Shown here: positions 12,907 through 53,220 of the stretch, in pieces
Layout: the number at the start of each line of letters is the position of its first letter
How positions within the stretch are numbered: position 1 is the stretch's first letter
Source: Acidobacteriota bacterium
GTDB taxonomy: Bacteria; Acidobacteriota; Vicinamibacteria; Vicinamibacterales; UBA2999
Length of the DNA: 64,000 bases
Assembly: GCA_030697165.1 (NCBI GenBank)
Contig: JAUYQQ010000010.1
Span: 1-64,000, forward strand
Direction of reading: 5' to 3'
Translations under genes and position numbers: made by a program
Notes under the pieces: generated by a model
The model's database searches: none
What the model saw: the letters and a program-made list of their open reading frames with translations, nothing else
What the model was told of the DNA's origin: nothing

Positions 12907-13650
12907 CTATGTTTTTTGACCCGTATAGAGATAGACGGCGCCGAACATGAATGGCCTTGCCTGAACTTGTGAAAACCCTGCGGCAGACAGAATTTCCGCG
13001 AACTCGTCGCCATAGGGAAAGGCCCCGATGGACTCGGGGAGGTAGGTATAGGCGGCGTCGTGACGCGACACGGCACGGCCGATCCGCGGAAGGATGTTGC
13101 GGGAATACCACTGGTAGATTGGCCCGAAGATCGGCGAGCTGGGCGTGCCGAACTCGAGAATCGCGACCCGGCCACCAGGACGAAGGGCTCGCACCAGCTC
13201 CCGGCACGCGACCTCCGGCAGCTGCACATTGCGAATACCGAAGGCGATGGTCGCGGCGTGCACCGATTCGTTCGCGACCGGCAGGTGCATGGCATCACCG
13301 CGCAGCAGCTGGATCCGTCCGGCGAGGCCGCCCTTCTCCACCTTCAAGAGACCGTGCGTCAGCATGGCGCCTGAAAAATCCACGCCGACGACGCGGGCGG
13401 CGCCGGTGCGGGCCGCGCCAATCGCGACATCGGCAGTCCCGGTGCAGACATCGAGCAGCCGCTCGCGCCCGGTGAGCTTCAGCGAGGCAATGGCATGCCG
13501 GCGCCAGTAGCGATCGACGCCGCCCGAGAGCACCGTGTTCAGCAAATCGTAACGGCCGGCAATGGCGTCGAACATGCCGGCGATCTTCTCGGGCGACTTA
13601 TCCGGACTGTCTGTGCCTAATCCGCGTTTAATCTGTGGCCTATCCGACAT
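12907..13650 (-). CDS. ubiE: Demethylmenaquinone methyltransferase (UbiE/MenG)
   Basis: SAM-dependent C-methyltransferase for the last step of menaquinone synthesis. It has 247 residues. Motif I is LLDVCTGTADVAIGAA, preceded by the family signature (FDAIAGRYDLLNTVLSGGVD), and it has the GIRNVQLPE post-motif. It overlaps mqnP by 11 nt. Because the upstream genes make the demethylmenaquinone precursor by the futalosine route, MenG activity is expected. Ubiquinone genes are not in view. Confidence 0.95.
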   Translation of the reverse strand: MSDRPQIKRGLGTDSPDKSPEKIAGMFDAIAGRYDLLNTVLSGGVDRYWRRHAIASLKLTGRERLLDVCTGTADVAIGAARTGAARVVGVDFSGAMLTHGLLKVEKGGLAGRIQLLRGDAMHLPVANESVHAATIAFGIRNVQLPEVACRELVRALRPGGRVAILEFGTPSSPIFGPIYQWYSRNILPRIGRAVSRHDAAYTYLPESIGAFPYGDEFAEILSAAGFSQVQARPFMFGAVYLYTGQKT

Positions 13651-14497
13651 ACAGCGCCAGTCCCGTCGTCACGAAATACAAGATGCCCACCCACCCATTC
13701 AAATCGAATGCGCGCTTGACCTGCGACAGGTCGTGCTCGCTGACCAGCGACTGTTCGTAGACCAGCAACGCCGCGACCAGCGCGACGCCGCCGAGATAGA
13801 TCGGCCCAAGTGGCACCAGCGCCGCCAGCGTGGCCATGCAGATCACGGTGGCCACGTGCATCACGCGCGAGATGACCAGCGAGCGCGCCACGCCGTAGCG
13901 GACCGGGATCGAGTTGAGGCCATGGGCGCGATCGAACTCCAGGTCCTGGCAGGCATAGAGAATGTCGAAGCCGCCCACCCACAAGCCAATCGCCAGGCCC
14001 AGCAGCCAGGGCTCCCACCCGCCGCGGCCGCCCGCGGCCAGCCAGCCGCCGACCGGCGCCACCGCCATCGCCAAGCCGAGAAAGGCCTGCGTATAGGAGG
14101 TGAAGCGCTTGGCTACCGAGTACCAGAACACAATGCCCAGCGCCACCGGCGACAGCATCCCGCACAGCGGGTTGAGGCGCGCGGCCGCGAACACGAACAC
14201 GATCGAGGAGACGCCGACGAAGATCGTCGCCTCGGCCCGGCTCATGGCGCCTCGCGGGATCTCGCGCATCGCGGTCCGCGGATTCAGGGCATCGAACCGG
14301 GCGTCAACGAGGCGATTGAAGCCCATGGCGGCGCTCCTCGCCGAGACCATGGCCACCACCACCCACCCCACCTGGCTCCAGTAAAACGGCGCCTCGCGCC
14401 ACGCCAGCAGCGCACCGGTGAGCGCAAACGGCAGCGCGAACACCGAGTGGCTGAAACGAACGAAGGACAGATACGTGACGAGACGGTTAGGTGCCAA
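13640..14497 (-). CDS. mqnP: UbiA-family prenyltransferase of the menaquinone pathway (MqnP-like)
   Basis: Membrane prenyltransferase expected to attach the polyprenyl tail to the futalosine-pathway naphthoate. It has 285 residues with about eight hydrophobic helices. The two Asp-rich motifs are NRLVDARFDALNPRTA and FDILYACQDLEFDRAHG. The only plausible start is a TTG at 14495-14497, because the conserved YLSFVRFSHSVFALPFAL block follows within nine residues. That TTG lies in degenerate copies of the 9-nt minisatellite that also encodes the end of the upstream gene. Confidence 0.9.
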   Translation of the reverse strand: MAPNRLVTYLSFVRFSHSVFALPFALTGALLAWREAPFYWSQVGWVVVAMVSARSAAMGFNRLVDARFDALNPRTAMREIPRGAMSRAEATIFVGVSSIVFVFAAARLNPLCGMLSPVALGIVFWYSVAKRFTSYTQAFLGLAMAVAPVGGWLAAGGRGGWEPWLLGLAIGLWVGGFDILYACQDLEFDRAHGLNSIPVRYGVARSLVISRVMHVATVICMATLAALVPLGPIYLGGVALVAALLVYEQSLVSEHDLSQVKRAFDLNGWVGILYFVTTGLALYVG

Positions 14498-15806
14498 GGG
14501 TGCCAGGGGTGCCTAAAGTGCCTAAGGTGCCTAAGGTGCCTAAGGTGCCTAAGGTGCCTGGGGTGCTCAGGTGCTTGATTCGAGCGGGGTTGATCCCACT
14601 CACCAGGTACTCTTCAATATCATCCACTGGGCCGGGTAGTTCGATGGCGATAATCTGTGCCCGCTTGCCGGGGGTCAAGGAGCCGAGGTCGGCGTCGAGG
14701 CCCAAGGCGCGCGCACCGGTCAGGGTGGCGCTCTCGAGCAGTTTCGACGCCGGCACGCCGGGCGCGATCGCGCGCATGGTCTTCAGCTCGCTGAACAGGT
14801 TCAGGTCGTCAACGCTCGCGAGGCTGTCGGTGCCAATGGCGACCGGCACGCCCGAGTCGTAGAAGCGCTGGATGGGCGGCAGGCCGACGCCGACCCATTG
14901 ATTGCTACGGGGGCAGGTGACCAGGGTGGCGCCGATCGCGGCCAACCGCGCCAGCGCAGCGTCATCGAACTGCACGCCGTGCACGACGAGTGTGCGGGCG
15001 TCGATCACGCCGAGGCGGTCCAGGTACTCAACCGGGCCGCAGCCGGGAACGGCCCAGTCGTCGCGCCACACCCCGATCAACTCGAGCATGCCTCGCCAGG
15101 GCCCGGTGCCGGAGGCCAGCAACTCGGTCTCTTCCGGCGACTCGCCAAGGTGAACGCTCATGATCGGGCAGGCGGACGCGCCCACCTCCGCACGGATCGC
15201 CTGGAACAATTCAGGCGAGGTCGAGTACGGCGCATGCGGCGCCAGCGACACGCAGCCAACCGCATCGGCCCGCGCGGCGCGCGTGCGCTCGACGCCGGCG
15301 CCGTCCCGGTCGTTGAAACCCAACAACTCGTGAAAGACGATGCCAGCGAGACCGGCGGCGGTCAGAAGCGGCGGCGAGGCGAGCGAGTTGCTGATGTCGC
15401 CGACGGCCACCGTGCCGCTCGCCTGCAATTCGCGGATTGCCCCGCGCAACGGCTCGAGCACGGCGGGGTCGTCGGCGCGCTCGACCCCGCGGCGAATCGC
15501 GAACAGTTGCTTGACCCAGTCGGTGAACTTCCCCGCCGGCGGCACGCGTCCGCGCAGCCACGATAGTTCCAGATGGATGTGCGCGTTGATGAGCCCGGGC
15601 ATCAGGACCACGTTGCCGAGGTCCCTGATCCCCGGTCCCTGATCCCTGATCCCCGGTCCCTGATCCCCGATCCCTGGTCCCTGATCCCTGATCCCTGGTC
15701 CCTGATCCCTGATCCCTGTTATGCGGCCGCCCTCGACATGCACGAGGCCGTCCCTCATCGGCGGCTGATCGATCGGGCAGATCCAGGCCGCCCGGTAGGC
15801 GGTCAT
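14487..15806 (-). CDS. mqnX: Amidohydrolase, probable aminodeoxyfutalosine deaminase
   Basis: A 439-residue metal-dependent amidohydrolase of the Trz/MtaD type. Metal ligands are in NAHIHLELSW, MSVHLGES, LVVHGVQ and AIGTDSLAS. Its position between mqnC and mqnP suggests it deaminates aminodeoxyfutalosine to futalosine (inference from context). The start is the ATG at 15806 overlapping mqnC by 4 nt. Two low-complexity insertions are encoded by tandem DNA repeats: a GIRDQGP-type heptapeptide run near residues 30-62 and a GTL tripeptide run at the extreme C-terminus. Neither belongs to the fold. Confidence 0.85.
   Translation of the reverse strand: MTAYRAAWICPIDQPPMRDGLVHVEGGRITGIRDQGPGIRDQGPGIGDQGPGIRDQGPGIRDLGNVVLMPGLINAHIHLELSWLRGRVPPAGKFTDWVKQLFAIRRGVERADDPAVLEPLRGAIRELQASGTVAVGDISNSLASPPLLTAAGLAGIVFHELLGFNDRDGAGVERTRAARADAVGCVSLAPHAPYSTSPELFQAIRAEVGASACPIMSVHLGESPEETELLASGTGPWRGMLELIGVWRDDWAVPGCGPVEYLDRLGVIDARTLVVHGVQFDDAALARLAAIGATLVTCPRSNQWVGVGLPPIQRFYDSGVPVAIGTDSLASVDDLNLFSELKTMRAIAPGVPASKLLESATLTGARALGLDADLGSLTPGKRAQIIAIELPGPVDDIEEYLVSGINPARIKHLSTPGTLGTLGTLGTLGTLGTPGTLGT
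14490..14573. repeat. 9-nt minisatellite (cctaaggtg units) spanning a gene junction
   Basis: About six near-identical 9-nt units, flanked by degenerate ones, encode the C-terminal GTL repeat of the amidohydrolase and run into the mqnP start region. The unit is a multiple of three, so copy-number change would keep the amidohydrolase in frame. Related units occur at 12881-12906, and looser gtgcc runs at about 18474-18500 and 56724-56748. Confidence 0.85.
15621..15718. repeat. 7-nt tandem repeat (gatccct/ggtccct) inside a gene
   Basis: Fourteen 7-nt units, mostly gatccct with ggtccct about every third copy. The effective period is 21 nt, or seven codons. On the minus strand they encode the GIRDQGP-type repeat near the N-terminus of the amidohydrolase, in a loop between early beta strands before the metal-binding NAHIHLE. 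Changes of three units keep the frame; other changes would break the gene. Confidence 0.9.
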
Positions 15807-17026
15807 GCGACCGGCGACGCCGGCGGCTGGGAACGCTGCCGCTTGCCGGCGGCGGTGCGAGCGGGATAGTTGACCAGTTCGACGGGCACGGTCGTGTCCC
15901 CGGCTTCGCGCGCGGTCGACAACTCCAGCGTGCGCGGGACCTGGTGTTCGCGAAAGAACGGGTCGCCCAAAATCTCGTAGTGCATGTTGCGTCGCTTGGC
16001 AGAGAAACCCGCGTCCTCGGCGTTGCGGACGATTTCCACTTCGTCCATGCAGTACACGGCGCCGGCCGCCCGGACGACGTTCTCTTCGATCATCACGCTG
16101 CCCATGTCGTTGGCGCCGAACGCGAGGCTCAACTGCCCGACCTTGCCGCCCTGGGTGACCCACGACGCCTGCAGGTTGTCGAAGTTGTCGAGCACCAGCC
16201 GGGCAATCGCCAGGGTGCGCAGGTACTCGATGCCGGTCGCTTCGGTGCCGCCGCGCTCGGTGTGCTCGGGCTGGTAGCTCCAGGCGATGAACGCCGTGAA
16301 GCCGGCGGTCTCGTCCTGCAGGTCGCGCAGCCGCAGCATGTGCTCGAGCCGTTCTTCGTCGCTCTCGACCGTGCCGTACATCATCGTCGCCGTCGTGCGC
16401 AGCCCGGCCCGGTGCGCATGGCGCATCACGTCCAGCCACTCGTCGGCCGTGGCCTTCGCATAGCAGTTCAGCAGCTTGCGCACGCGGTCGACCAGGATCT
16501 CGGCACCGCCGCCCGGCACGCTGTCGAGGCCGGCAGCGATCAGCCGCGCGATGACTTCGGGAACCGGCAACTTCGAGGTGCGAGAGATGTGCAGCACCTC
16601 CGGCGGGGACAGCGCATGCAGCTTGAAGTCGGGGAACCGCTGCTTCACGCCGCGGAACAGATCCTCGTACCACGCCAGCGGCAGATCAGGGTTATGGCCG
16701 CCCTGCAGCAGCAGTTGCCCGCCGCCGAGGGCCTGCGTCTCTTCGATTTTCCGGTAGATCTCGTCGAAGCCGAGCACGTAGCCTTCGCCGTGGCCGACCT
16801 CGCGGTAGAACGCACAGAAGTTGCAGCGGGCGACGCACACGTTGGTGTAGTTGACGTTGCGATCGATGATGTAAGTGACCACGCCGGCCGGGTGCTTGCG
16901 GCGGCGCACGCCGTCGGCCATGCGGCCGAGCCAGTAGGTCGGCGCGTGGCGATAAAGCGCTAACGCCTCGTCTGCGGCCAGCCGGCCGCCCGCTTCGATT
17001 CGCTGCTCGAACGCCTTGAGATCCAT
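15803..17026 (-). CDS. mqnC: Cyclic dehypoxanthinyl futalosine synthase
   Basis: Radical SAM enzyme of the futalosine menaquinone pathway, 407 residues. The cluster cysteines are in NVCVARCNFCAFYR (CxxxCxxC). Family landmarks are YIIDRNVNYTN, LLLQGGHNPDLPLAWYEDL, HALSPPEVLH, LDSVPGGGAEILVDRVRKLL and TTATMMYG, which separate MqnC from MqnE and CofH. It is two bases downstream of mqnA and overlaps the amidohydrolase by 4 nt. Confidence 0.95.
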   Translation of the reverse strand: MDLKAFEQRIEAGGRLAADEALALYRHAPTYWLGRMADGVRRRKHPAGVVTYIIDRNVNYTNVCVARCNFCAFYREVGHGEGYVLGFDEIYRKIEETQALGGGQLLLQGGHNPDLPLAWYEDLFRGVKQRFPDFKLHALSPPEVLHISRTSKLPVPEVIARLIAAGLDSVPGGGAEILVDRVRKLLNCYAKATADEWLDVMRHAHRAGLRTTATMMYGTVESDEERLEHMLRLRDLQDETAGFTAFIAWSYQPEHTERGGTEATGIEYLRTLAIARLVLDNFDNLQASWVTQGGKVGQLSLAFGANDMGSVMIEENVVRAAGAVYCMDEVEIVRNAEDAGFSAKRRNMHYEILGDPFFREHQVPRTLELSTAREAGDTTVPVELVNYPARTAAGKRQRSQPPASPVA

Positions 17027-17028
17027 AG

Positions 17029-17826
17029 CTACTGATAGAAACGGAGGGGTTTCAACGCGACGGCCACACCCACTTCGACGCCCAGTTCGAGAAAGCGTCT
17101 CAGGCCGGCGGCCTCGCGATCGCCCAGCCCGTACTTGAGATTATCACGCAGGTATGCCAGCGACCTGGCCTCGTGGGCGGCATCGCCGCCAGCCACGCCC
17201 CGGGCGATCTCCGGCAGGTGCGCCTCGCCCGCTGTGCGGGCCGCGAGCAACGCCGCACACTGCGCGGGCGAAGCCGCCCCCTCGCGTCCGGTCCACATCG
17301 CATAGACGAACGGCAGGCCGGTGAGGGCGCGCCATTCGCCGCCAAGGTCGTACTTCGACAGGCCACGCCCCGCGGCATCGATCTCGAGCGCCGGGTCGCC
17401 AATGACCAGCGCGGCATCGGCGGTCGCCAGCATCGCGTCCAGGTCTGGGGCTGCGGGCATAAACGCGGGCGCGATGCCCCACCGCTTCGCGCACAGGATG
17501 CGCGTCAGCGCCGCCGAGGTCCGCGAACTCACGTCGAGGGCGAGGGAACGAACCTCCCCGATCGGCACCTTCGAGAAAACCGCCACCGACGCCACCTCGC
17601 CGTCCGAAGCAATCGCCACGTCTGGCACGATCCAGTAATCCTGGGGTCCCCGGATGTACTCGATGGCTGGAACCAGCCCCAGGTCGACCCGCCCTTCGTG
17701 CAACAGCGCGGCGCAGACCGCCGGCACGTCATAGCGCAGCTCGAACTGATCGGACATGGCGTCGAGGCCATACACCAGCGGCTTCGTGTTCAGGTACGAC
17801 ACCGCGCCCAGGCGCAGCGGCGTCAT
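17029..17826 (-). CDS. mqnA: Chorismate dehydratase MqnA
   Basis: First enzyme of the futalosine route, converting chorismate to 3-[(1-carboxyvinyl)oxy]benzoate. It has 265 residues with the periplasmic-binding-protein-like fold. The N-terminus (LRLGAVSYLNTKPLVYGL) and the segment GRVDLGLVPAIEYIRG are characteristic. It overlaps the MqnE-like gene by 4 nt (17823-17826). Confidence 0.94.
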   Translation of the reverse strand: MTPLRLGAVSYLNTKPLVYGLDAMSDQFELRYDVPAVCAALLHEGRVDLGLVPAIEYIRGPQDYWIVPDVAIASDGEVASVAVFSKVPIGEVRSLALDVSSRTSAALTRILCAKRWGIAPAFMPAAPDLDAMLATADAALVIGDPALEIDAAGRGLSKYDLGGEWRALTGLPFVYAMWTGREGAASPAQCAALLAARTAGEAHLPEIARGVAGGDAAHEARSLAYLRDNLKYGLGDREAAGLRRFLELGVEVGVAVALKPLRFYQ

Positions 17827-18671
17827 GCGGGCGATGTCCGCTCGCGAGGCTGGAAGCCGGCCGCGGCGATGTTACGGGTGACGTCTTCGAGAGAGGTCCG
17901 GCGCCGCCCCAGCGACTCGTCATCGGTGATTGACACGCGATCGAGATCGTTCGCGCCGAAGGTCAGCGCCACCTGGGCCAGCTTGGGGCCATACTGCTGC
18001 CAATCCACCTGCACATTCGGGACCCCGGGCAGCGCCAATCGCGCCAGCGCCACCGCCCTGACATCGTCATAGCCAGTCGTCGGCACGGCAATCGACTGTT
18101 CCCGCGAGAGCGGCGCAATGGTCGTGAGCCACGGGAACTTGTCGGCCAGCGCGCGGGCCTGGATCAGCATGGGCGTGCGCGCCTCGATGTTGGGCTTTTG
18201 CAGAGACAGGCACTGCACCGGCAGCCCCGCGTCCTGGCAGGCCTGGAGGGCCGCCTCGGCATTGGCCAGGCGATCCAGGGGTGCCTCGACGATGGCACCA
18301 AGCCCCGCCTGTTTCAGTTGCGCGAGCACGCCGGCCAGGTCTCCCCAGCCACGGTCGATGATGTCGGCCAGCGAGAAGCCACTCACCACTGAGTTCTCTG
18401 CGGCGCCCTTGGCTTGCGCGACGACCTGGACGGTCTCCGACAAAGTCGCAGCCGTGTCAGTAATTCGCACTTCCGCACCCTTGGCACCGCTGGCACCTTG
18501 AATTTCCACCACCCGAACGAACGTGACGCTGTCGCCGACACGGGCGCGGCGGACCTCGTCGGCGAGCATGCCGAGCGACAGGATGTCGGCCGACGCCAGC
18601 TCGTCGAGTTCGGCGGCGGACAGCGGTTGGTTGGCGCGCGCGCGATCGGCAATCGCGGAATTGATAGTCAC
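17823..18671 (-). CDS. MqnE-like protein lacking the radical SAM iron-sulfur cysteines
   Basis: A 282-residue protein whose two ends resemble aminofutalosine synthase MqnE. The N-terminus (LSAAELDELASADILSLGML, then ADEVRR) matches its leader helices. The C-terminus (YGPKLAQVALTFGANDLDRV, then a helix ending RNIAAAGFQPRERT) matches its barrel end. Where MqnE carries CxxxCxxC, this protein reads VTFVRVVEIQGASGAKGAEV with no cysteine. The only cysteines (ACQDAG, VQCLSL) are far away and wrongly spaced. It is about 90 residues shorter than typical MqnE and coupled by 4-nt overlaps to the genes on both sides. The function is unknown: a pseudoenzyme partner or a repurposed barrel. Confidence 0.8.
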   Translation of the reverse strand: MTINSAIADRARANQPLSAAELDELASADILSLGMLADEVRRARVGDSVTFVRVVEIQGASGAKGAEVRITDTAATLSETVQVVAQAKGAAENSVVSGFSLADIIDRGWGDLAGVLAQLKQAGLGAIVEAPLDRLANAEAALQACQDAGLPVQCLSLQKPNIEARTPMLIQARALADKFPWLTTIAPLSREQSIAVPTTGYDDVRAVALARLALPGVPNVQVDWQQYGPKLAQVALTFGANDLDRVSITDDESLGRRRTSLEDVTRNIAAAGFQPRERTSPA

Positions 18672-53006: not shown

Positions 53007-53220
53007 GCCGGGAGGCACTCCTTGTCGGGAGGCACTCCTTGTCGGGAGGGTGCCACTTGTCGGGAGGGTGCCGCTCGTCGGGAGGGTGCCGCTCGTCGGG
53101 AGGGTGCCGCTTGTCGGGAGGGTGCCGCTTGTCGGGAGGGTGCCGCTTGCCGGGACTGTCCCGACACGAAGTGTCCTCCCGACAGAGAGTGCCATCCCGA
53201 CAAGGAGTGCCCTCCCGGCG
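53007..53220. repeat. 18-nt tandem repeat array with an inverted arm
   Basis: Six consecutive near-identical 18-nt units (gtcgggagggtgccgctt) start at 53041, 53059, 53077, 53095, 53113 and 53131. They follow two or three degenerate gtcgggaggcactcctt units. From 53158 to 53218 the same motif runs inverted (cccgacacgaagtgtcctcc and relatives), so the locus as a whole is a large imperfect inverted repeat. It fills the 235 nt between the acyl-CoA dehydrogenase and the secreted protein gene. Confidence 0.9.

Follow-up and report, generated by a model that had tools for sequence, protein, structure and literature searches.

The 14-unit heptamer array inside an aminofutalosine-deaminase-like gene of an Acidobacteriota bacterium is best explained, with a probability of roughly 0.7, as a coding-region member of a genome-wide, dispersed family of G-rich heptamer repeats that is tolerated in a protein linker, with no need to invoke switching. 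The repeat itself is real and of an ordinary kind, but its location is unusual. The window (the whole 64,000-nucleotide stretch analyzed) lies on contig C10 of the source genome (G000; 5.39 Mb, 23 contigs), and the features that concern us are the following:

12907..13650, minus strand, UbiE/MenG-type methyltransferase (PF01209)
13640..14497, minus strand, UbiA-family prenyltransferase (PF01040)
14487..15806, minus strand, 439-aa amidohydrolase, aminofutalosine-deaminase-like, carrying the heptamer array at codons 31-63
14489..14574, minus strand, 9-bp array (GGCACCTTA-type) encoding the C-terminal GTL tail of the amidohydrolase, its last twenty or so residues
15619..15716, minus strand, 14-unit heptamer array (GGGATCA, GGGACCA, GGGATCG, GGGACCG, last unit GGGACCT), in frame, encoding GIRDQGP-type heptapeptides
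15803..17026, minus strand, mqnC (cyclic dehypoxanthinyl futalosine synthase; TIGR03699, 473.8 bits, cut-off 428.1), upstream of the amidohydrolase
17029..17826, minus strand, mqnA/mqnD family protein (PF02621)

A heptamer array in a menaquinone gene

The amidohydrolase gene is placed between mqnC and the prenyltransferase gene in a minus-strand menaquinone (futalosine) operon. Its best curated match is the aminofutalosine deaminase family NF006269, at 152.3 bits, below the cut-off of 320, and its predicted fold resembles that of Helicobacter pylori aminofutalosine deaminase (7lkk, TMt 0.82). Residues H76, H78, H219, H276, and D327, which we take to be the amidohydrolase metal and active-site residues, are invariant across 13 sequences. 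Relatives at the protein level are mostly labeled Acidobacteriota, with one Luteitalea, and two others are labeled Cyanobacteria and Sulfopaludibacter. A further, 282-aa protein of the operon (17823-18671) resembles CofH/MqnC/MqnE over their C-terminal part alone. A search of the genome for MenD gave nothing above the cut-off (best 69.4 bits vs. 244.2), and a full-length MqnE is encoded elsewhere in the genome (G000:C22:47351, 481.6 bits), suggesting that the futalosine route is likely the sole menaquinone route and that loss of the gene would be costly. Judged from the gene content, an OFF state of the deaminase would probably remove quinone.

The first-pass annotation described a seven-base repeat of 14 units encoding heptapeptides, and such a repeat is indeed present, two bases away from where it had been placed. 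The pattern GGG[AG][TC]C[AG] fits 13 consecutive minus-strand units (15626-15716), and the 14th, GGGACCT, ends at 15619; the tract is impure, with five unit types among the 14 units. Tandem Repeats Finder reported 15622-15718 with a period of 7 (13.9 copies, 84% matches), and at a period of 21 gave 4.6 copies with 96% matches. The top 60-bp stretch of the whole window for self-matching at lag 7 had 52 matches, whereas 50 block shuffles averaged 30.6 and never exceeded 34, which excludes chance for the array.

Within the 1320-base coding sequence, the array starts at base 90 and keeps exactly to the reading frame. The G-rich strand of the heptamer is open in all three reading frames and the C-rich strand of pure units has stops in all three, so that in general only the G-rich orientation can sit inside a gene. 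The amidohydrolase ATG (15806) shares bases with the stop codon of mqnC, and residues 1-28 align with 12 relatives; the translation start thus precedes the repeat, which disposes of the possibility, raised in the first-pass annotation, that translation starts after it.

The array belongs to a dispersed family

Searching the source genome with ten pure units revealed 43 dispersed arrays on many contigs and both strands, and pattern matches numbered 141 forward and 89 reverse. A 24-base pattern was present in 14 of 60 genomes including the source (13 of 59 relatives), and in six of the eight other genus members. Positions relative to genes were taken from 46 array stretches of at least three units, found in 35 stretches of the source genome (the window and 34 fetched). 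According to a home-made gene caller, 37 of these have a gene border close on their 5′ side: 20 start about where a sense gene stops (from 4 bases inside it to 12 bases beyond), and 17 are upstream of an antisense gene start; the deaminase copy is instead intragenic. An automatic intragenic test, which needed coding signal on both sides, flagged one of the 46 and missed the array in the window because the furthest start codon was used. All six array pairs lying less than 1 kb apart are convergent (+ then −).

A promoter role for the arrays was considered and set aside as weak: a TATAAT-like hexamer (at least 5/6) lies within 20 bp of the array 5′ end in three of the 17 arrays upstream of antisense starts, with a shuffled mean of 0.64. 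At the array 5′ ends of L089, L073, and L074, such a hexamer is separated from the array by 4-7 bp and points toward the neighboring gene. Elsewhere in the window, 53009-53217 holds adjoining 17-18-bp tandem arrays, one of them of 6.6 copies at 96%.

Relation to known heptamer repeats

G-rich heptamer repeats (GGGAATC and GGGGA(C/T)T) of Xanthomonas and Nostoc have been described by Rehm et al. (2015; PMC4692102), who noted that the same junctions are reused in two Xanthomonas species and who refer to polymerase slippage as a proposed origin of the period of seven. As far as the available part of that paper describes them, these repeats have in common with the GGGATCA family a 7-bp unit with a GGG tract, a dispersed distribution on both strands, a mostly intergenic position nearer the 5′ ORF, convergent pairs, and occupation of the same junctions by other lengths and sequences in relatives. 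With 14 units, the deaminase array also falls in the class so defined, that of a 7-bp unit with intact GGG in at least four copies. GGGATCA differs from the Rehm repeats in that it does not fit GGGANTN, making it the same kind with a different sequence; its family belongs to the phylum Acidobacteriota, and its deaminase copy sits inside a conserved enzyme. The end phase that arrays share in G000 (see below) has no counterpart in the portion of the paper at hand.

The TAACTGA heptamer repeats of Beggiatoaceae, Cyanobacteria, and Bacteroidetes (MacGregor 2015; PMC4679880), as presented in the available part of the report, are alike in that the heptamers mostly adjoin genes, have one open orientation in ORFs, and form coding copies mostly at protein edges. 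They differ in not being G-rich, in lying just upstream of starts, and in being proposed as a translational regulator site. Literature searches for GGGATCA as a word and for GGGATCAGGGATCA anywhere found neither, and a search for heptamer tandem repeats in Acidobacteria found nothing on topic. By this comparison, the phenomenon is known in kind from Xanthomonas, and the Acidobacteriota family and the coding-linker copy would be additions to it.

The same linker in relatives

Amidohydrolase linkers in nine genus members (the source included) differ in length and sequence, and all nine are in frame. Read by eye, the linker of G008 contains eight heptads of another type (GGACCCC, GGGATCC), that of G007 degenerate GGGAGCC-type heptads, and that of G005 seven heptads together with a single additional base, the heptad count alone being one that would break the frame. 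The linker is 50 nt in G005 vs. 98 nt here, and both lengths leave 2 after division by 3. The conserved linker codons G-I-R-D-L-G (e.g., GGGATC-CGGGATC-TCGG) resemble two heptads. The reading frame through the loop is intact in all 31 loci inspected, which come from 30 relatives and the source and sample species rather than strains; none is out of frame. A first search had given one-frame matches from the N-terminus in 50 of 59 relatives (counted by eye); a frameshift in G022 and G030, where matches began at residue 61, was rejected as reflecting alignment limits. The G015 orthologue is cut by a contig end, and G021, G023, G027, G031, G046, and G056 gave no strong orthologue in that first search.

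Other repeats occur around these loci. Heptamers of other types (GTGATTA and TCACAAA; L026, 1333-1382) fill the spacer that separates mqnC from the deaminase gene in G022. Arrays of at least three copies at the relative loci L005-L033, L102-L119, and L180-L211, a set partly fetched at array junctions, have mostly periods of 7, 8, and 9 (19, 14, and 11 arrays, respectively).

The linkers also bear on G-quadruplex control, by which GGG-N4 tracts, either in the mRNA or on the non-template strand, would act as a brake on transcription or on translation of the deaminase. The coding strand of the array has 13 overlapping G4 motifs, permitting G4s lowers the computed folding energy of the isolated array by 7.5 kcal/mol (from −32.3 to −39.8), and the sister repeats of Xanthomonas and Nostoc form G4s in vitro, according to the part of Rehm et al. 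available (PMC4692102). Within the mRNA from −40 to +260, however, allowing G4s gains only 2.9 kcal/mol by computation, and the linkers of G003, G004, and G006 have far fewer or broken GGG tracts, arguing against conserved G4 control. We consider this explanation unlikely.

Predicted structure and a proposed route to a tolerated loop

An AlphaFold model of the amidohydrolase built from 13 sequences has a mean pLDDT of 86.2, with stretches below 50 only at residues 37-56 (heptamer array) and 417-439 (9-bp repeat tail). Both repeats are thus predicted by the model to encode floppy, disordered parts of the protein. The G006 orthologue ends in another 9-mer, TGGCACCCC (L103, 4111-4144).

A tolerated array could have arisen at this position in a few steps. 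Changes in length would be tolerated in the linker that joins the N-terminal strands to the first barrel strand (H-x-H), the heptad-like G-I-R-D-L-G codons could have seeded growth through slipped-strand mispairing or unequal exchange, and selection would have removed out-of-frame lengths, so that changes by multiples of 21 bp, or changes offset by small indels, persisted. The array matches itself at 0.935 with a lag of three units and at 0.824 with a lag of one. This 21-bp super-period (p 0.003-0.006, uncorrected, 21 arrays tested) is suggestive for the array, but we dropped it as proof of selection for frame because it is also seen in L084, L092, and L095, which are placed outside genes. Seeding in situ does not explain the occurrence of one unit at 43 sites, nor the shared end phase.

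Phase switching

The first-pass annotation had interpreted the array as a phase-variable (contingency) locus, at which slippage by one or two units toggles the deaminase, and hence menaquinone synthesis, in part of the population. Its premise about unit length is sound: in simulation, changes of ±1, 2, 4, or 5 units shift the frame (±1 or 2 closing it at 65-200 codons), and changes of three or six keep it open. Like SSR contingency loci such as the Haemophilus tetranucleotide repeats, the array is in frame near the 5′ end with a unit that is not a multiple of three. Loop length varies between species as well, and the constant copy number that the annotation had counted as contrary evidence is not seen at that level.

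Phase variation is nevertheless very unlikely. Unlike SSR contingency loci, the deaminase array has no OFF allele among the 31 loci sampled at the species level, its tract is impure, and its host is a housekeeping gene in the only menaquinone route found, MenD being below cut-off. The out-of-frame heptad count of G005 is offset by a single base and not by slippage (by eye), and the arrays of the family adjoin all sorts of genes. Rehm et al. (PMC4692102) considered it improbable that the sister repeats in Xanthomonas and Nostoc serve phase variation.

End phase and reuse of sites

The arrays of the source genome share an end phase: GGG closes 33 of 46, and 32 open with either TCA (24) or CA (8). 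Under stricter matching, which gave 47 stretches in G000, 25 end on GGG and the starts are TCA in 19 and CA in 10. G036 largely shares this phase, G023 has a different one, and none can be seen in G005, G007, and G008 (5, 7, and 7 arrays, respectively). A candidate insertion motif shared by the array ends was rejected: apart from (T)CA ahead of the first GGG and a GGG following the last unit, no clear signal emerged.

Periodicity was compared for 13 end pieces from 12 further array sites, one piece, L097, being without a relative (matches of at least 62% identity). Seven was the best period, and significant, in 14 of 27 orthologous spacers from four sister species; among the remaining 13, periods of 6, 8, and 3 occurred once each and ten had nothing significant. 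The units at orthologous sites, read by eye in matches of at least 60% identity, were GGGATCC or GGGGTCC in G003 and CCCAAGC-like in G005 and G003. Two orthologous sites carry arrays on the opposite strand (G005 at L093, G008 at L100). One clear empty site was found, at L100 in G006, which reads GCTTATCAAGATACG vs. GCTTA-array-TCAAGATACG in G000.

The common array ends, the empty site, and the convergent pairs would suit recent dispersal by copying, in which a mobile or repair-templated process inserted fixed-end arrays at many sites, the deaminase gene included. We regard this as very unlikely given the variation or absence of the end phase in the relatives above, flanks that share no sequence beyond the unit, and the graded heptad-like linkers across the genus, which at the deaminase suit growth in place. 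It also seems quite unlikely that a lineage-specific activity lays down and rewrites 7-base arrays at fixed sites, with the deaminase loop as a coding by-product. Such an activity would account for the persistence of period and place among sister species that differ in the unit (GGGATCA, GGGATCC, GGGGTCC, GGGCTTG) and even in the strand, and for the unit and end phase that arrays within one genome have in common. The shared end phase of the arrays and the reuse of sites by different heptamers are unexplained here.

Implications

On the preferred reading, that of a tolerated coding member of a dispersed family, a dispersed heptamer repeat can settle in a conserved enzyme as a frame-kept loop. 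A repeat of this kind inside a gene need not be a phase switch, and caution is called for in interpreting one as such. With sister species that carry different heptamers at the same junctions, the Acidobacteriota family offers a system for asking why a period of seven is so frequent among bacterial repeats.
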